Source of the DNA: Gemmatimonadota bacterium | GTDB taxonomy: Bacteria; Latescibacterota; UBA2968 | Assembly: GCA_026706845.1 (NCBI GenBank) | Contig: JAPOXY010000030.1 | Span: 1 to 45,902 of the forward strand | Reading direction: 5' to 3' | DNA length: 45,902 bases | Shown here: positions 4,160 through 14,899 of the stretch, piece by piece | Layout: each line of letters starts with the position of its first letter | How positions within the stretch are numbered: the first letter of the stretch is position 1 | Made by a program: the position numbers and the translations under genes | The notes under the pieces: generated by a model | Seen by the model: the letters and a program-made list of their open reading frames with translations, nothing else | What the model was told of the DNA's origin: nothing | The model's database searches: none

Positions 4160-4337
4160 GTCCGGGTTCTCCTTAAAAGAATAGCAGGTGGATGATGGGG
4201 TTTAGTTGATGGCAAAATATAGCCTTTGACATGCAGGTGCAAGCCAAATAGATATTCGTTGATGAACTGCTGGCGCAGTCATGTTCTCACGCGAAGCACA
4301 ACGTCAGTAATTACTCGCCTTCATACCCCATTCCGCC

Positions 4338-4369
4338 GATTCGTTGATTCGTTGATTCGTTGATTCGTC
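4338..4369. repeat. Tandem 8-bp repeat (GATTCGTT)x4
   Basis: Three exact GATTCGTT units are followed by GATTCGTC, with a further partial CATTCG copy. Read on the minus strand it would encode Asn-Glu-Ser-Thr-like repeats, but no plausible gene is present. It is probably a simple-sequence or dispersed intergenic repeat. Confidence 0.85.
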
Positions 4370-4473
4370 CATTCGCGCTTTTTGAAGGTTGCGTTCTGCG
4401 GAGCGTATCGCGTATATTGCGGGACAGGGAGTCAGATTTTAGAGAGGAGATATTTATCAAACAGGCCGTAAGC

Positions 4474-4494
4474 CCCGACAGCTTTAGCGTTGGG
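4474..4494 (+). repeat. TnpB-right-end-like stem-loop with TTTA loop
   Basis: CCCGACAGC, TTTA, GCGTTGGG forms an eight-pair stem with one bulged A and a TTTA loop. The right end of the adjacent TnpB element (5954-5972) has the same architecture: GC-TTTA-GC core, a one-base bulge in the 5' arm, and a G-rich 3' arm. It may be the relic end of an earlier insertion in the same orientation. Confidence 0.45.
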
Positions 4495-4774
4495 AAGCAG
4501 ACGCGAGTTAGCGAGCGTTGTTTTGTAAGGGATTCCGATTCTATGGGGTGGTGCTTTAACAGGGTGGTATATCTCACAAGGCGATATGGGCGGCGCATCA
4601 CAAAGACTCATCCGATAGCATCACTTGAATAAAATGTTGTTTTTGTGTATATTTATAGTATCATACAGATTAAGCATAATGCTTTTTTTAGGCTATTTCT
4701 CAAGCCTCAGCGGACAGAGAGCTTTATGCATCTATGTGACAACTGCTGGGGCTTTCTTTACTGAGTGGTTGCCA

Positions 4775-5878
4775 ATGTATGTGACCTACAAATATAAGCT
4801 GTATAGCCGATGTGATCGTAATAAGTATCTCCATCGCGAGATTGACACCTTTGCGGGTGTGTATAATCATTTCATCGCCTTGCACAAGCGATACTATCGG
4901 CGTTTTAAGAAGTATCCAAGCAAGTACACACTGATAAAGCACTTGACAAGGCTGAAAAAGACCGTGCGATATTCTGCCTGGTGTCTATTGCCGAGTCAGG
5001 CATTGCAGAATGTGATCGAGCGCATAGACTTTGGATACCAGAAGTTCTTTGATAAGGACAACAAGAGACCGCCTAAATTTCGCAGTAAATTTAAATACAA
5101 GTCCTATACGCTTAAGCAAGCTGGATACAAGTTTCTGGACGGTAACAAGATGCGTATAGGTAAGCGTGTATTCAGGTATCATAAAAGTAGAGACTTTGAC
5201 ATAGAGAGTGTCAAAACAGTCACCATTAAGCGCGATAGCGCAGGCGACTTGTGGCTATGTGTTGTTGCAAAAGCTGAAGCGTTCAAGTCATTCATTGTCA
5301 AGACGGGTAAAACCGCAGGCTTTGACTTTGGCTTGAAAACATACTTGACTGCAAGTGACGGCACAAAGATACAATCGCCATTGTTCTTCAATCGTAATTC
5401 AAGAAGGGTCAAAAAGGCCAATCGCAATCTTTCTCGCAAGAAGAAGGGTAGCAACAACCGTCATAGGGCAAGAATAAACCTTGCCAGAGTACACAGGCGC
5501 GTGGCTAATCAACGCAGAGACTATCACTGGCAACTTGCCTATCAACTGTGCAAAGAATATGACGTCATGTGCTTTGAAAAACTCAACATCAAAGCCATGA
5601 AACAATTGTGGGGAAGAAAAATTAGTGATCTGGGATTCTCAGACTTTTTGACTATTCTCAAGTATGTCGCAAAAAAGACAGGCAAGCATGTTATTCAAAT
5701 CAAACAGGGGTTGCCCTCGTCAAAGACTTGCTCTGCTTGCGACAATGTAAAAGAGAATCTTGAATTGCGAGAAAGAACATTCCATTGTTGCAAATGTGGT
5801 CTCGAAATAGACAGAGACCTCAACGCAGCGATAAATATTCACAGGTGGGGATGTCCATCTGTGGCGGAGGTAGCGTAA
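4775..5878 (+). CDS. tnpB: RNA-guided endonuclease TnpB (OrfB)
   Basis: A 367-residue TnpB, normal for the family. The start MYVTYKYKLYSRCDRN is chosen because TnpB proteins begin with this beta-strand; the frame is open 50 codons upstream, but that part lies in the left-end palindrome. The RuvC catalytic residues are all present: Asp in GFDFGLKTY (about 184), Glu in CFEKLNIKAM (about 268) and Asp in DRDLNAA (about 346-348). A zinc ribbon with Cys 319/322 and 338/341 sits between the last two. By analogy with ISDra2 TnpB, the protein binds an omega RNA from the element's 3' end and cleaves DNA next to a short motif, helping the element persist. Nothing suggests inactivation. Confidence 0.92.
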   Translation: MYVTYKYKLYSRCDRNKYLHREIDTFAGVYNHFIALHKRYYRRFKKYPSKYTLIKHLTRLKKTVRYSAWCLLPSQALQNVIERIDFGYQKFFDKDNKRPPKFRSKFKYKSYTLKQAGYKFLDGNKMRIGKRVFRYHKSRDFDIESVKTVTIKRDSAGDLWLCVVAKAEAFKSFIVKTGKTAGFDFGLKTYLTASDGTKIQSPLFFNRNSRRVKKANRNLSRKKKGSNNRHRARINLARVHRRVANQRRDYHWQLAYQLCKEYDVMCFEKLNIKAMKQLWGRKISDLGFSDFLTILKYVAKKTGKHVIQIKQGLPSSKTCSACDNVKENLELRERTFHCCKCGLEIDRDLNAAINIHRWGCPSVAEVA

Positions 5879-5980
5879 GACTTGCCGACTTTCGGGAAAG
5901 CAAGCAACTACTGTTGATCCCACAATCCCTGCTGAAGCAACAGGTTCTATAATCCATAAGCTTTAGCTTTGGGAGTACGT
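5879..5980 (+). ncRNA. Candidate omega RNA (TnpB guide scaffold), 3' part
   Basis: The 100 bases after tnpB carry compact stem-loops: CAAC-TACT-GTTG, TGCTGAAGCA and a terminal CCATAAGC-TTTA-GCTTTGG hairpin with one bulged T. This is the usual place for omega RNA, which begins inside the 3' part of tnpB and ends at the element boundary. The guide would be the flanking host sequence from about 5981 onward, here the first codons of the downstream gene. The 5' limit is unknown. Confidence 0.5.
5971..5975 (+). promoter_or_regulatory. Shine-Dalgarno supplied by the TnpB element end
   Basis: GGGAG at the extreme right end of the element lies six bases upstream of the ATG at 5982. It is the only plausible ribosome-binding site for the epimerase gene, so the insertion appears to have replaced the native leader. 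Confidence 0.55.
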
Positions 5981-5981
5981 C

Positions 5982-6581
5982 ATGAATGTGGCAGTGATTG
6001 GCGCAGATCGCCCCTGGGGTGCGCTGCTGGCGACGGGGTTGGGCGCGGGGTTTGAGGTGGTGGCGATTGGTTCGGAAGATGCCCGTGATTTTGCCGGGTA
6101 CCGACAGGTTGATTTGCTCCAGCGAGAATCGGTAGATCCGATGCTGGCGGGCGTAGAGGCTGTTGTGTACGCGGCGGCCAGCGATCCAATAGGGGATAGC
6201 GAGCAGGTTTTGCTCGACGTAGCGGCGCGGGGGACTTATGTGGCGCTGACGGCTGCCTGTGCCGCCGGTATTGAGAAGGTGGTGTTGTTGAGTTGTCTGG
6301 ATTTGGTGCGGGATTATCCGGAGGAATATATCGTTGATCCGCGGTGGAATGCGATACCGCGAGCAGAGGCTGAGGCACTGGCACCGTTTATGGCTGAGCT
6401 GGTGGGGCGGGAGATTGCGCGCACGGGTCAGATTGAGGTGCGTTGTTTGCGCCTTGGTGCGCCGGGTGTGGAGACTATGGCGGAGGATGCGGTGACGGCT
6501 GTGCGCGATGCGCTTATAGCCGAGCGCGAGGGGCACCACTGGTCGCTGTCGCATGTGGCGTCGAGTGGGCGTTTTGCTTGA
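5982..6581 (+). CDS. NAD(P)-binding epimerase/dehydratase-like protein (atypical SDR)
   Basis: A 199-residue Rossmann-fold protein starting MNVAVIGADRPWG, a variant of the GxxGxxG dinucleotide-binding loop, and followed by DLLQRESVDPML and VVYAAAS, the usual second and fourth strands of atypical extended SDRs. The YxxxK catalytic pair is not obvious, so enzymatic activity is uncertain. It is shorter than typical extended SDRs. It starts directly after the TnpB element and is followed after ten bases by a second SDR gene, suggesting co-transcription. Confidence 0.65.
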   Translation: MNVAVIGADRPWGALLATGLGAGFEVVAIGSEDARDFAGYRQVDLLQRESVDPMLAGVEAVVYAAASDPIGDSEQVLLDVAARGTYVALTAACAAGIEKVVLLSCLDLVRDYPEEYIVDPRWNAIPRAEAEALAPFMAELVGREIARTGQIEVRCLRLGAPGVETMAEDAVTAVRDALIAEREGHHWSLSHVASSGRFA

Positions 6582-7441: not shown

Positions 7442-9931
7442 TCATTCATGCCGCAAGGCCTCTATTGGATTTGCCTGAGCTGTTTTGATGACCTTATACG
7501 CTACTGTTATTGTTGTCAGGACAACCATACACACACCACCTACTAAAAACGGCAGTGCCGAAATCTCAATGCGATAGGCAAAATTCTGTAACCATTCATT
7601 GGTTGCCCAATAGGCAATCGGCCATGCCAATAAACAGGATACCAATACCAGGCGAATAAACTCTTTCAAGAACAGCCCTACAACAAGACCTGCAGATGCA
7701 CCCAACACCTTGCGAATACCCACTTCCTTTTTGCGCTGTTCGGTCAAAAATGAGACCAGCCCCAATAGGCCCAGACACGCAACAAAAATAGCCAGAGCAG
7801 CAAAAACGCTCATCGCGCGGCTCAACTGTCGCTCCTGGGTATATTGCTGATTCAGATTGTCATCCATAAACGTGTAAGCAAAAGGGCGAATCGGCAAAAA
7901 ATGTTTCCATACCTTTTCCATGTGTGCAACGGTTTCATCGAAATTATGAGGGCTTACCTTTAGATAAAGTGTCTTGGGTACCGCGTTGTTCGCATATAAA
8001 ACCATAGGGCCAAGCGGCTCGTGCAATGTGCGCGCGTGAAAGTCTTTAACCACGCCTATAACACGCCCTGGTCTTCGTCCCTTCACACCAAATGGTTTGC
8101 CAATGGGGTCTGCCCAATCCAGCATTTTAACAGCGGTTTCATTGAGAATGTATTCTGCCTGACCGTGAACCTTCAATTGCTCCAACTGATCTCGGGGCAC
8201 AAATGATTCCGAATCATACCTTTTCGCTGCGTCTTCTGAAAAGTCTCGACCCGCAACAAGTTCAATATTGAAGAAACTCAGAAAATCTTCATCCACTTCA
8301 TTCCTGCCCATACGCAATTCTTCTTTGCCCGGTTCATAAGCACTAAAAGTCGCTTGTGGCGCAGTGCGTCCGTGTGAAGAACGCGCAATTGTTGCAGCCG
8401 TAATATTGGGATGCTGCAAAAACACATCTTTGACAACATTGTACCGTTCCCACAAGCGATCTTCACGCAAACGAGAATTGCGAGACTCCCACAAAAGACG
8501 GGACTCAATAACGTACTCTTTGTCAAATCCCAGATCTTTGTTTTGGATATACGACATTTGATTAAACACAACCAATGTGATCACAATCAGTGCAATAGAT
8601 GTACTAAACTGAAAAACCACCAGCACTTTGCGCAATAACCTACCGCGAGCACCTGCTGCGAGTGTGCCTTTGAGCACTTCAACAGGCCGAAATCGCGATA
8701 AAAGAAATGCTGGATAAATCCCCGTAATAAGTCCTGTTATCAGAGATAATCCAACCAGAGCAAGTGCCATATTGCCCGTGATATCCAATGTCAAAGAATT
8801 ACCCGTATAGTCGTTGAAATGTGGTAAGAAATCAGAAATAACAACTAACCCCACAATCAAACTCAATACAGAGAAAATCACCGACTCGGCCAAAAATTGC
8901 AAAGCGAGTTGTCCTCGATGCGCGCCGACCACTTTTCGCAATCCCACCTCGCGTGCCCGGTTAGCTGATCGGGCTGTGGTCAAATTGATGAAGTTGATGC
9001 TCGCAATTAAAAAAATGAGAATGGCTGTAGCAGATGCAGCATAAACATGTGCAATATTGCCATGTATCACTGGCCCTTGAATGTCGAATACGTCCTGAAG
9101 TCCATAATCGCGTCTCGAGTACAAATGCACTTCATCCATGGGCTGGAAGTGATACGTCGTGCGTGCTACCATTTCCGGTCCCATATACTGTTCCACCATC
9201 GCGGGTATTTTTAAAGCCAATTTTTCAACTGACGTGTTTTCTTTTAACCGTACGTGGACCGTGATTCCGCCTCGCCAATGTGCTGTTGGCAAATAGGCAT
9301 TCCAGTATCGAGAAAGAAAAGCAGGCCAGACAGAGGCTGAAAGCATATCAAAACGAATCGAAGATCGCCTGGGCAAATCTTTAAGCACACCCGCGACAGT
9401 ATAATCGCCCCCGATATAGGCCCCTTCGACCGTAAGCACTTTGCCGATGGGGTCTTGATCGCCAAAATAATCGCGTACCATAGACTCGGTGATAAAAACA
9501 GAATTATGCTGTAAAAGAGCAGACTTGTCACCCTGTATTATTGGAAAGTTGAATACATCCAGGCAATTCGGGTCCGCGAGACAAAATACCCGATTCAAGA
9601 CTGTCTCTTTATGCTGCACCCAGGCTTGGCGAAGCATTGTGCGTGTGGAGATTTCAACTTCGGGGAAATCGCGTGCCAAAGTGGGGCCAATTGCCCCCGA
9701 AATGCGCCAGTCGTATGTTGTCTGACCATTTTCTGATCGATACTCACCAATGATTCGATACAAGCGATCTGCATGCGGATGTTGTGTGTTAACAGCCAAT
9801 TCGTTTTGTACAAACAGACCGATCAAGATGACACACCCGATGCCAATGCCCAGCCCGATAACATTGATCGCTGAGTACATTTTGTATTTGAGCAAATTGC
9901 GAATCGCGATGACGAGATAGTTTTTGAACAT
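7442..9931 (-). CDS. ABC transporter permease, FtsX/MacB double-permease type (copy 1)
   Basis: An 829-residue membrane protein with SD AGAGGA before ATG. One N-terminal TM segment (about residues 20-42) is followed by a large extracytoplasmic MacB_PCD domain, three TM helices, a short TM plus a second extracytoplasmic domain, and three final TM helices. The conserved cytoplasmic coupling motifs EVGLRKVVGAHR and EVGIRKVLGAS would contact an ATPase subunit. These type VII transporters export peptides or lipoproteins or transmit force to the envelope; they are not classic importers. No ATP-binding gene is nearby. It ends the tandem array of three and starts 52 bases after the previous gene. Confidence 0.9.
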   Translation of the reverse strand: MFKNYLVIAIRNLLKYKMYSAINVIGLGIGIGCVILIGLFVQNELAVNTQHPHADRLYRIIGEYRSENGQTTYDWRISGAIGPTLARDFPEVEISTRTMLRQAWVQHKETVLNRVFCLADPNCLDVFNFPIIQGDKSALLQHNSVFITESMVRDYFGDQDPIGKVLTVEGAYIGGDYTVAGVLKDLPRRSSIRFDMLSASVWPAFLSRYWNAYLPTAHWRGGITVHVRLKENTSVEKLALKIPAMVEQYMGPEMVARTTYHFQPMDEVHLYSRRDYGLQDVFDIQGPVIHGNIAHVYAASATAILIFLIASINFINLTTARSANRAREVGLRKVVGAHRGQLALQFLAESVIFSVLSLIVGLVVISDFLPHFNDYTGNSLTLDITGNMALALVGLSLITGLITGIYPAFLLSRFRPVEVLKGTLAAGARGRLLRKVLVVFQFSTSIALIVITLVVFNQMSYIQNKDLGFDKEYVIESRLLWESRNSRLREDRLWERYNVVKDVFLQHPNITAATIARSSHGRTAPQATFSAYEPGKEELRMGRNEVDEDFLSFFNIELVAGRDFSEDAAKRYDSESFVPRDQLEQLKVHGQAEYILNETAVKMLDWADPIGKPFGVKGRRPGRVIGVVKDFHARTLHEPLGPMVLYANNAVPKTLYLKVSPHNFDETVAHMEKVWKHFLPIRPFAYTFMDDNLNQQYTQERQLSRAMSVFAALAIFVACLGLLGLVSFLTEQRKKEVGIRKVLGASAGLVVGLFLKEFIRLVLVSCLLAWPIAYWATNEWLQNFAYRIEISALPFLVGGVCMVVLTTITVAYKVIKTAQANPIEALRHE

Positions 9932-9983
9932 GAATGCGTCCTCTAAATTTTAAAAAGTACAGTCAAATGGCGCGGGTGGTCGT

Positions 9984-12371
9984 TTACTCCTGACGGAGCA
10001 TTTTAACCGGGTCTTCAGACCAGGCTTTGCCAGCTTGATAGCCCACGATTAATAGGGTGACAATGATGCCTGAGACTGCTCCGATAATAAAAACGACCAC
10101 GCTCTGATTTATTCGGTATGCAAAATTTTGTAGCCATTGCTCCCCGGCATAATAAGCGAGGGGAAGTGCCAACACATAAGCGATCGCGATTAACTTCAGA
10201 AACTCTTTTGAAAGCAATGTGAAAATATCTGCGAGATTCGCACCCAGTACTTTGCGGATTCCAATTTCTTTGATTCTTTGTTCAACACTGAAATTTGCAA
10301 GGCCAAATAGTCCCATACAAGCGACAAAAGAAGCGAGAAGCGTGAAGATTTCAAGGACATTGAATATGTTGATTTCCTTTAGATAAGATCTTTCGAGGTT
10401 TTCGCTTAGAAACGCGCTGTCAAAAGGCCGGTTAGGGATGAATTGCTTCCACTTTGACGCCATGAAATCTATTGTTGATGAGACGTTCTCCCGTCCAATT
10501 TTGACTGATAGCCAATTCCATTGTGTCTGCCACTTGCATATAAAAATTGGCTCTATTTCTTCATGGAGAGACAGCAGATGAAAATCGCGCACGACCCCAA
10601 TTACTGTTCCACGACGATTATTAAGAAGCCAGGTAAATTGCTTTCCAACAGGATCTTTCCATCCGAGTTGTTTAACAGCCGTCTCGTTGAGAATAAATGC
10701 TTCAAAAGAATCGCTCGCAATATCCTTATTCAGATTTCTTCCAGCTATCACATCGATTTCGAATGTGTCCAAAAAATCTTCATCTACTACCAGATGCCTC
10801 ATTCTGACCTCTTCGCCATCAATTCCTTCTGGAATGACAAGCTCACGTCCTCCGTCATACCCGAATGTGATTTGAGATGCAGTTGCACGGTGAATATTGG
10901 GATGCTTGAGAAATTCCTGCTTGATCAATTCATACTTAATGGTGAGAGAACGGTCTGTTGCAAATAGCGGCATCATGACTACCATTTCTTCGTTGAAGCC
11001 AAGTTTTTTGTTTTTGATATAATTCAGTTGTTGATAGACCACGCCAGTGCAAATTATGAGGGCAATAGACACACAGAATTGAAAGACGATCAGGACTTCT
11101 CGCATGCGAACACCTTTTAAGGTGTGTGAGTACTTGCCACCTAATACCTGTATGGGTTGAAAACTTGAGAGAAAGAAAGCGGGATAGCTTCCAGCGATGA
11201 AACCCATCAGCACGGTAAGGATGATCATTATGAGAAGTTCAGAGACGCCAAAACGCAAGTCAATGCCCACAAATTGTTCAAATGCTGGCAGGACAAGTTC
11301 AATCAGTGAAATGGAAAAGAGCAAAGACAGGAGTGATATGAATAGCGATTCACTGAAGAATTGACTGATTAATTGACCTTTGTGTGCGCCGACAGTCTTG
11401 CGAATGCCCACTTCTCTTGCCCTTTTGGCTGAACGCGCTGTTGCCAAATTCATAAAGTTCGCACAAGCGATGAGGAGAATCAACGCACCGATCGCAGAAA
11501 ATAAATAGACATAGGTAATGTCTCCACCGTCTGTTATACCGTAGTCTGAATATGAGTAGAGATAGATCCGGCGAAAAGGTTGCAGGTGATACGTTGTGTT
11601 TGCACGCGTTTCGAGGTCAAAATAGCGGGTGGTAAAATCCGGCAATTTGCGCTCTAAATCAGCAGGAGAAGTGCCTTTGGAAAGCAATAGATAAGTTTGG
11701 ACAGGGCGAAAGGAAGATTTACGCCATCTTTCCCAAACCGCATGCATCAGTGGTAAAGAAGGAACAGTAAACGTCAGAATGTCGAATTGAAGTGTTGATT
11801 GACTCGGCAAATCTTTTAAGATGCCTACAATCTCATAATCTCCTCCCGTGTAACGACTTTCTACAGTAATTACCTTGCCGATAGGATTTTCATTACCAAA
11901 ATATTTTCGTGCAGTGGATTCTGTAACGACTACAGAAGAAGGGTGTTTCAGAATAGCTTGATGATCGCCCTTCAGGAACGGAAATGTGAATACATTGAAA
12001 AAACTATCATCGGCAACACAGAAGTTCTCTTGGAATCCCTTATCTTTGTACCGAACCCACGCATTACGGGTAAAAATTCGGGTCATCGTCTCGATTTCGG
12101 GGAAGTCGGCTTTGAGAGCAGGGCCTAAAGGTCCCAGGGTGCCATAATTGAAGTAGGAATCTCCAGTCGTTTTGTTTTTGACCTGTCTCAATACCCTGTA
12201 AATGCGGTCTCCGTTGAGATGGTGTTGATCGTATTTTATCTCATGCTGTATCCACAGGAGGATTAGGCCACAGCTCGTCAGGCCTACCGATAGTCCGACT
12301 ACGTTAATCAGTGAATAAAGCCTGTGATTGCGGATGTTTCGTATGATTATGGTGAGATAATTTTTCCACAT
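9984..12371 (-). CDS. ABC transporter permease, FtsX/MacB double-permease type (copy 2)
   Basis: A 795-residue permease with the same architecture as its neighbours: TM1, MacB_PCD domain, three TMs, second extracytoplasmic domain and three TMs. Coupling motifs are EVGIRKTVGAHKG and EIGIRKVLGANL. The start MWKNYLTIIIRN is chosen because it aligns with MFKNYLVIAIRN and MFENYLKVAVRN of the paralogues. An upstream ATG at 12491 overlaps the previous stop as ATGA, but it would add 40 unlike residues read through repeat R1. The SD is weak. It is about 116 bases behind the upstream permease, so co-transcription is likely. Confidence 0.9.
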   Translation of the reverse strand: MWKNYLTIIIRNIRNHRLYSLINVVGLSVGLTSCGLILLWIQHEIKYDQHHLNGDRIYRVLRQVKNKTTGDSYFNYGTLGPLGPALKADFPEIETMTRIFTRNAWVRYKDKGFQENFCVADDSFFNVFTFPFLKGDHQAILKHPSSVVVTESTARKYFGNENPIGKVITVESRYTGGDYEIVGILKDLPSQSTLQFDILTFTVPSLPLMHAVWERWRKSSFRPVQTYLLLSKGTSPADLERKLPDFTTRYFDLETRANTTYHLQPFRRIYLYSYSDYGITDGGDITYVYLFSAIGALILLIACANFMNLATARSAKRAREVGIRKTVGAHKGQLISQFFSESLFISLLSLLFSISLIELVLPAFEQFVGIDLRFGVSELLIMIILTVLMGFIAGSYPAFFLSSFQPIQVLGGKYSHTLKGVRMREVLIVFQFCVSIALIICTGVVYQQLNYIKNKKLGFNEEMVVMMPLFATDRSLTIKYELIKQEFLKHPNIHRATASQITFGYDGGRELVIPEGIDGEEVRMRHLVVDEDFLDTFEIDVIAGRNLNKDIASDSFEAFILNETAVKQLGWKDPVGKQFTWLLNNRRGTVIGVVRDFHLLSLHEEIEPIFICKWQTQWNWLSVKIGRENVSSTIDFMASKWKQFIPNRPFDSAFLSENLERSYLKEINIFNVLEIFTLLASFVACMGLFGLANFSVEQRIKEIGIRKVLGANLADIFTLLSKEFLKLIAIAYVLALPLAYYAGEQWLQNFAYRINQSVVVFIIGAVSGIIVTLLIVGYQAGKAWSEDPVKMLRQE

Positions 12372-12382
12372 GGTAAGACCCC

Positions 12383-12438
12383 GTTGACAAATCATTGGAA
12401 AGCCCTTAGTGATATGCAATATGAGATCAGTTCCCACC
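12383..12438. repeat. Dispersed repeat R1 (degenerate copy)
   Basis: Lies between two permease genes. GTTGACAAATCATTGGAAAG, CCCTTAGTG and GCAATATGAGATCAGTTCCC align with R2 (18515-18588) and R3 (21252-21325). It lacks about seven bases in the middle and the AACTGG arm of the hairpin seen in the other copies. Confidence 0.7.
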
Positions 12439-12487
12439 ATTAAATCGGGGAACTTCAGTTTGAATGACAACAGCAACTCAGAAGTAA

Positions 12488-14899
12488 TCATTTATAACGC
12501 AAATGATGAATGGGATTTAACAGAGCAGTTTTTAGGGTATGATAGACGATGGTAAGCAGGGCTATCATCAGGGATATTCCGCCACCCAGGATCAGCGTTA
12601 TAAGATCCACATGAACGCGATAATGAAAATCCTGCAACCAGGCCTCCATGACGAAAAAAGCTATGGGCCAGGCAATGATGTTGGTCAATAAAATGAGTCC
12701 TAAAAAATCCCTCACGAGCAACCACCAGATGTTGAACTTAGAAGCTCCCAGTACCTTTCGGATACTCATTTCGTGGGTGCGATACTGCACGGTAAAAGCG
12801 GTTAGTCCAAATAAGCCCAGACAGGCTACAAAAATTGTAAGCAGTGACACTAATCGGAGCATTTTTTCTAATTTTATCTCAGCCTCATAATTCCATTTAT
12901 CTATGTTTTCATCTAAAAAATGAAAATTGAAGGGGAAATTTGGGATTAGTCGTTTCCACTGGTTTTCCACGAATTGGATCGTGTTGGCAATATTATCTTT
13001 TCGAATTTTGAGGGAGAGATAATTCCATTTGGGAACCCACATGCAGACGAAAACAGGTCCTATTTTTTCGTGCAAAGATAGCAGATGAAAATCCTCGACA
13101 ACGCCAATCACTTTTCCGGGCCTATCATTCCACTCAAACTGTTTGCCAATTGGCTTCTCCCAACCCAGTTGTTTGACCGCCGTTTCATTCAGGATATAGG
13201 CATTTGTGGTGTCGCGTCCAATATCGCTTGAGAAATTTCGGCCTTCTTTAACTTTGATGTCAAAAAAGTTCAGAAAGTCCTCATCAGCAGCCAATATATT
13301 CATCTCCCAACCATCCGAATTACTTCCTTCTGGATAAACCACCCAGCGCTCTCCCCACCCAATATTGGGCAATGTATGAGAAGCCGTTGCCGCCAATATA
13401 TCTGGATGTTTTATAAATTCCTGGTGTATTGCACGATAATTGCTCGTCAATGATCGATCTGTCATGTATAACTCCAAAATCATGACCTGATCTTTATTGA
13501 AACCGAGGTCTTTATTTCTCATGTACTTCATTTGATTAAAGATGGTTATCGTGCCGATGATACATATAACCGAAATTGAGGATTGAAAAATCACCAATCC
13601 CTTTCGGAATCGGGCGTTGTTTTTAGTAGAAACTAATTTACCTCCTTTGAGAATATCCATAGGCTCAAAGGCAGATAAAACAAAAGCAGGATAAATTCCA
13701 GAAAATAGCCCGACCAATACCGTAATGCCGGATAATCCGACCAATAGAGATCCGTTCTGAATATTTAGTGACAATGCCTTAAGTGTAAAAGCATTAAAGG
13801 TAGGCAGGAAAAGCTCGACAAAACTCAATGCCAACAAGAGGGCGAGCAATGATAGCAGAAAGGATTCTCCCAAAAATTGCACAATCAATATCCGCCGATT
13901 AGCACCTACCACTTTCCGCATACCTACTTCCATTGCCCTGGTGGTGGCGCGTGCTGTAGCGAGATTCACGAAATTGATACCGGCAATGAGTAAAATAAAA
14001 AAGGCAAGTGTAGAGAGTAAGTAGATATACGAGATGTCGCTATACATGGTCATACCGTAATCTACGTTAGAATAGAGGTGGATACGATCGAGCGGCTGCA
14101 GGTGATAGACATTGTTTGATTGGATTTCCTCGCCCATATAACGAAGCATAAAATCGCTCAATTTTTGTTCCAATTCGGAAGGTGGATACCCTTCTTGTAG
14201 CAAAATAAAAGTTTCTATTGGCAGCCAACCACTCTCGCGCTGCCATCTTTCCCACACAGTGCCAGCAAACTCTTTTTGTCTCCATTCTGATGATGCAGAC
14301 GAAGCGAGAAAATCGAATTGAATTGTCGAATTTATTGGTATATTTTCCAGGACACCTGTGATTTTGTAATCCCCTCTAAAATATCGGTGTTCAACGGTGA
14401 TTGTTCGGCCTATGGGATTTTCGTCAGGGAAGAATTTATTCGCCATTTCCCGGGTGAGAACAATGGTATAAGGTTCCACCAGAGCTGTCCTCGGATCGCC
14501 TTTTATGAAAGGAAAGGAGAAGATTTCAAAGATTTTAGAATCGGTCATCATAAATTTTTGTTTAAACCATTTGTCTTTATAGTTTATCCAGGTATCAATG
14601 TCCCAGGTCCGGACAGCACTTTGTATTTCTGAAAAATCTTTCAGCAGAGACGGTGCAAGCGCACCTGAAGTGCCCGGATGCGTCTGGGATTCGCCACTAT
14701 TGGCTTCCCTTTCTCTCAGCACCCGGTAAATGCGATTGCTTTTTTCGTGGAACTGGTCATACCCTATTTCATCCTGTATATACAAAAAAACCAAAATACA
14801 ACAGGCCATCCCGATAGCTAAACCACTGATATTCAGGAATGAAAACATCTTAAATTTAATCAGGTTTCGAACTGCAACTTTTAGATAGTTTTCAAACAT
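12488..14899 (-). CDS. ABC transporter permease, FtsX/MacB double-permease type (copy 3)
   Basis: An 803-residue permease beginning MFENYLKVAVRNLIKFKMF, with AAAGGA six bases before ATG. TM1 is around residues 20-40, followed by the MacB_PCD domain, three TMs (about 285-430), a second periplasmic domain and three C-terminal TMs. Coupling motifs are EVGMRKVVGANRR and EMSIRKVLGASK. It is the first gene of the minus-strand array and lies downstream of the predicted sigma-54 promoter at 15090-15105, so it heads that transcription unit. No cognate ATPase is adjacent; one encoded elsewhere would be required. Confidence 0.9.
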   Translation of the reverse strand: MFENYLKVAVRNLIKFKMFSFLNISGLAIGMACCILVFLYIQDEIGYDQFHEKSNRIYRVLREREANSGESQTHPGTSGALAPSLLKDFSEIQSAVRTWDIDTWINYKDKWFKQKFMMTDSKIFEIFSFPFIKGDPRTALVEPYTIVLTREMANKFFPDENPIGRTITVEHRYFRGDYKITGVLENIPINSTIQFDFLASSASSEWRQKEFAGTVWERWQRESGWLPIETFILLQEGYPPSELEQKLSDFMLRYMGEEIQSNNVYHLQPLDRIHLYSNVDYGMTMYSDISYIYLLSTLAFFILLIAGINFVNLATARATTRAMEVGMRKVVGANRRILIVQFLGESFLLSLLALLLALSFVELFLPTFNAFTLKALSLNIQNGSLLVGLSGITVLVGLFSGIYPAFVLSAFEPMDILKGGKLVSTKNNARFRKGLVIFQSSISVICIIGTITIFNQMKYMRNKDLGFNKDQVMILELYMTDRSLTSNYRAIHQEFIKHPDILAATASHTLPNIGWGERWVVYPEGSNSDGWEMNILAADEDFLNFFDIKVKEGRNFSSDIGRDTTNAYILNETAVKQLGWEKPIGKQFEWNDRPGKVIGVVEDFHLLSLHEKIGPVFVCMWVPKWNYLSLKIRKDNIANTIQFVENQWKRLIPNFPFNFHFLDENIDKWNYEAEIKLEKMLRLVSLLTIFVACLGLFGLTAFTVQYRTHEMSIRKVLGASKFNIWWLLVRDFLGLILLTNIIAWPIAFFVMEAWLQDFHYRVHVDLITLILGGGISLMIALLTIVYHTLKTALLNPIHHLRYK

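Follow-up and report, generated by a model that had tools for sequence, protein, structure and literature searches.

An epimerase-like gene separated from its own leader by a complete IS200/IS605-type TnpB element in a Latescibacterota MAG

We have analyzed a 45,902-nucleotide stretch of DNA (the window) from a Latescibacterota MAG, in which a complete IS200/IS605-type TnpB element separates an epimerase-like gene from its own leader. The window is one contig of a 5.46-Mb bin that is 95.7% complete and comprises 279 contigs. A search with the epimerase protein placed its nearest named relatives among Latescibacterota MAGs. The whole stretch was searched against a comparison set of 11 genomes of the genus, the window MAG included. 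The best overall explanation of the locus, which we consider probable, is that the element entered TTTATGAATG immediately 3' of TTTAT and so parted the T of the epimerase start codon from its G; that a later change of its last base from A to T, presumably retained by selection, rebuilt the ATG; that GGGAG at the right end replaced the native Shine-Dalgarno sequence as ribosome-binding site; that the gene would be expressed by read-through from the native or the tnpB promoter, with the omega-RNA fold over GGGA setting a limit to its level; and that the guide, which equals the first codons of the gene, would direct TnpB at the element-free allele. The element family itself is ordinary; what is unusual is that a start codon has been split and rebuilt and that an omega-RNA scaffold has become the leader of a gene, which makes the locus an unusual variant of an insertion sequence fused to a gene leader. 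The features of the locus are summarized in Table 1.

Table 1. Features of the TnpB element, its insertion site and the downstream gene (window coordinates)
Feature	Position	Strand	Basis
Putative native promoter block TTGCGT-18-TATATT of the epimerase gene, now 5' of the element	4389..4418	+	Block largely conserved in 6 orthologous leaders; promoter scan did not return it
Native Shine-Dalgarno GGAG, 1.5 kb from the start codon	4446..4449	+	Aligned with GGAG-type leaders of 6 element-free orthologs
Target site/TAM TTTAT (core TTAT), 5' flank of the element; final AT is the former AT of ATG	4453..4457	+	TTAN^ boundary from 5 other insertions with empty sites; 17/27 other left ends TTAT
IS200/IS605-type TnpB element, both ends present, without tnpA	4458..5983	+	End comparisons, empty sites
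Left-end hairpin CCCGAC ... GUUGGG	4474..4494	+	Read from sequence; same position in other left ends
Candidate tnpB promoter TTGAAT-17-TATATT	4625..4653	+	Consensus scan only; 4 sites against a shuffle mean of 3.4, not above shuffles
tnpB, 367 aa	4775..5878	+	Pfam, NCBIfam and structure-chain matches
Omega-RNA scaffold region (tnpB 3' end and right end)	5802..5983	+	18-copy alignment; exact 5' end approximate
UCCC, predicted partner of GGGA 5971-5974	5926..5929	+	Alignment and folds; pairs nearly invariant, no covariation support
Right-end GGGAG, now at Shine-Dalgarno position, 6 nt to ATG	5971..5975	+	GGGA in 29/29 right ends, GGGAG in 27/29
Right cleavage-site tetranucleotide TCAT (TCAA in 28 other right ends); T5983 rebuilds ATG	5980..5983	+	Right-end alignment, empty sites
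Epimerase/dehydratase-like gene, 199 aa, intact	5982..6581	+	Domain search; orthologs 94% and 93% identical
Predicted omega-RNA guide GAATGTGGCAGTGATTGGCG, within codons 1-8 of the epimerase-like gene	5984..6003	+	Position by TnpB rule

Orthologs of the epimerase-like gene without an element are found in 6 of the 10 other genomes of the genus (L008 to L013, 94 to 84% identity), and a close ortholog is missing from the other four. The orthologous loci share the same intergenic region, which in each of them leads to the beginning of one divergent gene (phytanoyl-CoA dioxygenase-like in the window). Five of the six element-free leaders have GGAGAT, then three or four bases, then ATG; the leader of L013 reads GGAGGATTACT. 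The left flank of the element ends GAGAGGAGATATTTAT and the right flank begins GAATGTGG. Joined, these give GGAGATATTTATGAATG, which aligns without gaps at the junction to all six leaders, save for one base of leader-length variation: the length from GGAGAT to ATG is the same in the joined window sequence, L010 and L008, and one base shorter in L009, L011 and L012. Since the joined flanks match the element-free leaders, the insertion split the start codon as AT^G (TTTAT^GAATG). The preliminary description of this DNA had called for a comparison of the empty site in relatives, which might have turned out to lack the gene or to carry the same GGGAG leader. Neither is the case for the six element-free relatives, which keep the gene behind a GGAG-type leader of their own and not behind the element's GGGAGTACGTC. 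Elsewhere between the divergent genes, the window has about 110 extra bases with GATTCGTT repeats (4255-4375); five of the six orthologous loci lack these bases, and the extra stretch that L010 has at this place is a different one. The minus strand at 7442-14899 contains three consecutive large ORFs (829, 835 and 803 aa) that by eye resemble repeated MacB/FtsX-type ABC-transporter permeases.

Matches to the window stretch occur in 10 of the 11 genomes, and the 29 that reach the right end all stop at one base, so this end of the element is real. The aligned right ends read GGGAGTA[C/T]GTC, followed by AA in 28 copies and by AT only in the window. The count leaves out the duplicate window loci L007 and L032 and pattern matches that lacked the conserved context upstream; judged by their right flanks, L040 and L051 occupy a single insertion site, so that the 29 ends represent 28 sites. 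GGGA is present throughout and GGGAG in all but two copies (GGGAT in L034, GGGAA in L042), which identifies GGGAG as element sequence. On the left, the flanks of 27 other copies end in TTAT (17), TTAG (4), TTAC (4) or TTAA (2), in a search whose pattern required TTA and from which the window copy was excluded. To place both boundaries, the flanks of 11 copies were joined at TTAN^ and GTCAA^ and searched against the genus. Five insertion sites (targets TTAG, TTAC and three times TTAT) were found empty in relatives, with the joined flanks gapless in most rows; at the L002 site, small indels near the junction occur in three (L153, L155 and L147) of the seven relatives shown. From these matched empty sites it follows that the element ends in GTCAA, that its target is TTAN and that it makes no target duplication.

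These comparisons change the limits of the element. The preliminary description had recognized a TnpB element and given it the coordinates 4690-5985; the element is there, and it extends instead from 4458 to 5983. A left boundary at 4690 was rejected, as the left ends of other copies begin 3' of TTAN; the actual end follows TTTAT at 4453-4457, some 230 bases further left. On the right, the reported stem with GGGAG (here placed at 5971-5975) and the ATG at 5982 are borne out. The proposed end, 1 to 3 nt short of the ATG, is not: because the family right end is GTCAA at the five empty sites, the element extends to 5983, and the A and the T of the ATG are its own bases. The same five sites also rule out an element that stops one or two bases sooner, in which case the AA of other copies would be target sequence.

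In a search for copies outside the genus, a right-end model matched 10 of 47 genomes of the class, all of the window genus. Its two weak matches in G008 (L089 and L095) were left out of the set of 29; these distant right ends have GGGGAGTTCGTC and then AC, and represent a diverged subfamily in the sole genome of the genus without close copies. A further set of loci (L041, L048, L049, L054 and L070-L079) match the left end and have no match to the remainder of the window element; they are either further members, copies that have decayed, or small derivatives with a common left end, and a number of them lie at contig ends. The L052 copy lies within a reading frame (right flank from 2722) that, judged by eye, presumably encodes the C-terminal portion of a protein of the methionine aminopeptidase type.

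The last base of the element is A in 28 of the 29 copies, and the sole exception is the copy at the start codon, where T5983 restores ATG. The closest copies, L033 (95%) and L034 (93%), both end in GTCAA. With this standard end the window site would read GTCAAGAATG (GTCAA, then GAATG), with no ATG; the actual sequence is GTCATGAATG. We infer that the ATG was rebuilt from two element bases and one gene base through a single change at the last position of the element. For a copy that differs by 5% from its nearest relative, a neutral change to T at just this position is estimated to occur in roughly 1 to 2 of 100 cases, and with one copy and one base the coincidence with a start codon may be due to chance. 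GTG codons at +6 and +12 would yield nearly the same protein, so the gene might have survived without T5983.

An alternative is that T5983 came with the element, either because the donor copy already ended in GTCAT or because an excised circle had joined its ends imprecisely, and that the fit to the start codon was luck. Both junctions read AT (4456-4457 and 5982-5983), which is compatible with this; for that reason a shifted junction and a substitution look the same in the sequence. However, all 28 other right ends of the genus have AA, the two distant ends of G008 are GTCAC, GTCAT occurs in none, and the exact ends of five other insertions speak against imprecise joining. We therefore regard an imported T as unlikely. 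Five of the 29 right ends, including that of the window, have an ATG, GTG or TTG within 13 bases that opens at least 50 codons, and inspection by eye of the other four found no authentic gene start; the gene at L064 apparently starts at an internal ATG downstream. A general rule by which elements of this TnpB family supply start sites is unsupported.

The TnpB protein has the Pfam domains OrfB_IS605 and Cas12f1-like_TNB and scores 239 bits against the NCBIfam model guided_TnpB (cut-off 100). In a search of solved structures it matched chain 8bf8, which we take to be ISDra2 TnpB, with an E value of 6.3e-39; the RuvC D/E/D residues and the four zinc cysteines could be aligned by eye to the top solved chain (u177240). 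The element thus combines an OrfB and zinc-ribbon TnpB with insertion on the 3' side of a short fixed target, which is not duplicated, and with hairpins near both ends, all traits of IS200/IS605 elements. The family-specific right cleavage site TCAA is not intact in the window copy, which has TCAT; since TCAA does not define IS200/IS605 as a whole, the element remains a member with an altered right end. The Y1 transposase gene tnpA (PF01797), by which an autonomous element is recognized, is absent from the window copy, which carries tnpB only, and was not found in the window MAG at its 95.7% completeness. It is present in 6 of the 11 genomes of the genus and adjoins tnpB of the same family in G001, G005 and G006. 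A tnpA-bearing copy occupies apparently one site in G001 and G006 (L051 and L040/L046), and because these loci have the same right flank, that insertion may predate the split of the two genomes.

The native GGAG now lies 1.5 kb upstream, and the GGGAG of the element is 6 nt before the ATG. The preliminary description had proposed that the leader of this gene is element sequence and that its expression depends on it. The first point holds, for GGGAG is conserved in right ends and the leaders of the relatives have GGAG-type sequences of their own; the dependence of expression is plausible. Duplex energies with the anti-Shine-Dalgarno sequence were calculated at -6.8 kcal/mol for the element GGGAG, against -8.4 kcal/mol for the joined native leader and L010 and -11.4 kcal/mol for L008 and L009. 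The anti-Shine-Dalgarno sequence was taken from the 16S of G007, as the 16S of the bin itself lacks its 3' end. By this calculation the element supplies a Shine-Dalgarno-like sequence that is weaker than the native one.

The site is moreover predicted to be folded. UCCC (5926-5929) pairs with GGGA in the consensus of both the 18-copy and the 24-copy alignments. The 18-copy scaffold alignment has 36 consensus pairs, seven of them with changes on both sides; this covariation is confined to a stem upstream, and the UCCC:GGGA stem has none because it hardly varies. In folds of RNAs starting at 4660, 4779, 5800, 5860 and 5900, the probability that GGGA is unpaired is 0.03 to 0.05; it rises to 0.21 to 0.66 for the later starts tried. 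In such folds the native GGAG is open with a probability of 0.57 to 0.96 across seven leaders, those of the six relatives and that of the joined window sequence. The 144-nt fold is no more stable than shuffled sequences (z -0.11), and a search of Rfam returned no match up to an E value of 1. With GGGA predicted to be about 95% paired in transcripts that cross the element, the new Shine-Dalgarno-like site may be weak or controlled, and the predicted pairing suggests that initiation at the rebuilt ATG is not strong.

Taken further, this fold could mean that the gene is silenced, with negligible translation because GGGA is locked in the scaffold, and that it is a young pseudogene without time to decay. 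The predicted pairing above 95%, the removal of the native Shine-Dalgarno sequence to a distance of 1.5 kb and the four of ten other genomes without a close ortholog, which mark the gene as dispensable in the genus, all agree with such a state. The frame of 199 aa is nevertheless open, and its dN/dS is low (0.13 against L008 and 0.14 against L009), with seven synonymous and three non-synonymous changes private to the window lineage. These values agree with a constrained gene, although the constraint may predate the insertion. ATG is, in addition, restored in the one copy of 29 whose last base differs, and altogether silencing seems to us quite improbable.

Another possibility is that the scaffold, as leader of a host gene, acts as a switch. 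Either TnpB would bind a transcript and process its 5' side, in a state in which the guide is loaded and GGGA is paired, or ribosomes starting at the rebuilt ATG would open it, so that the level of TnpB would set expression of the epimerase; the base change that saved the gene would also have impaired the right cleavage site and left the element fixed at this locus. We offer this as a speculation of low probability.

The start-codon rebuild with read-through is supported by a scan of the plus strand between 5643 and 5982, which found no terminator-like site. Between the end of tnpB and the ATG no promoter-like site was found on the plus strand, in a scan that gave hardly more sites than shuffles. 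As no promoter-like site is nearer, transcription would come from the putative native block (4389-4418) or from the tnpB candidate (4625-4653).

The RNA of ISDra2 is described as about 150 nt long, comprising the 3' end of tnpB, the right end and about 16 nt of flank (PMC8612924), and TnpB takes its guide from the sequence next to the right end (PMC8612924, PMC10278001). TnpB is also described as processing its own mRNA by trimming on the 5' side, and in Dra2TnpB it is about 12 nt of the guide that count (PMC10278001). By this established rule the guide would occupy 5984-6003, beginning at the G of ATG, which agrees with the earlier proposal that it reads into the first codons of the gene. The predicted guide contains GAAUGUGGCAGUGAUU. 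Because it equals the first codons of the epimerase-like gene, TnpB would be aimed at the element-free allele, and by the guide rule such an allele would be cut only if both TAM and seed match. Among the six element-free relatives, TTAT is found only in G001 (L009), where guide position 9 is mismatched, and a perfect 12-base seed only in G007 (L010), where the target motif is TCAT; the two occur together in none of the six.

That the junction is a repeat assembly artefact of the metagenome bin is very improbable: several other MAG copies do lie at contig ends (C97, C23, C211 and C52), but here both flanks come from one locus that is contiguous in six relatives, and the left junction has a standard target site.

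The locus shows how a gene may survive insertion into its start codon, at a cost of one base of the element's right end. A search of titles, the beginnings of abstracts and open-licence texts found no report of a TnpB element that forms a start codon. ISDra2 is described as preferring TTGAT^G (PMC5934647), and as AT-ending motifs followed by G (TTAT^G, TTGAT^G) contain ATG, start codons are natural targets of such elements.

The closest known systems are ISDra2, IS608, the processing of TnpB mRNA and the TldR repressors. The TnpB/reRNA system of ISDra2 in Deinococcus radiodurans likewise has RuvC residues, an RNA derived from the tnpB 3' end together with the right end, a guide from the flank and a target motif at the left flank (TTGAT, against TTAT here); the window copy differs in that it has no tnpA, with none found in the MAG, and in that its scaffold and guide run into a start codon (PMC8612924). 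IS608 likewise has the right cleavage site TCAA, a target (TTAC) close to TTAT/TTAC, and insertion 3' of the target without duplication, in contrast to the TCAT and the lone tnpB of the window copy (PMC5934647). A transcript with tnpB, scaffold and flank is the precursor expected from the known processing of TnpB mRNA to omega RNA, except that the 3' extension here is the coding sequence of a host gene (PMC10278001). Since the predicted guide and the coding sequence would lie on a single transcript, the locus lends itself to direct measurement of how TnpB and its RNA affect an adjacent gene. The nearest regulatory analogues are the TldR proteins, TnpB-derived guide-RNA repressors whose guide is aimed at a chromosomal gene; the window TnpB differs in that its RuvC residues are intact, and a regulatory role would follow by analogy only (PMC13418256).
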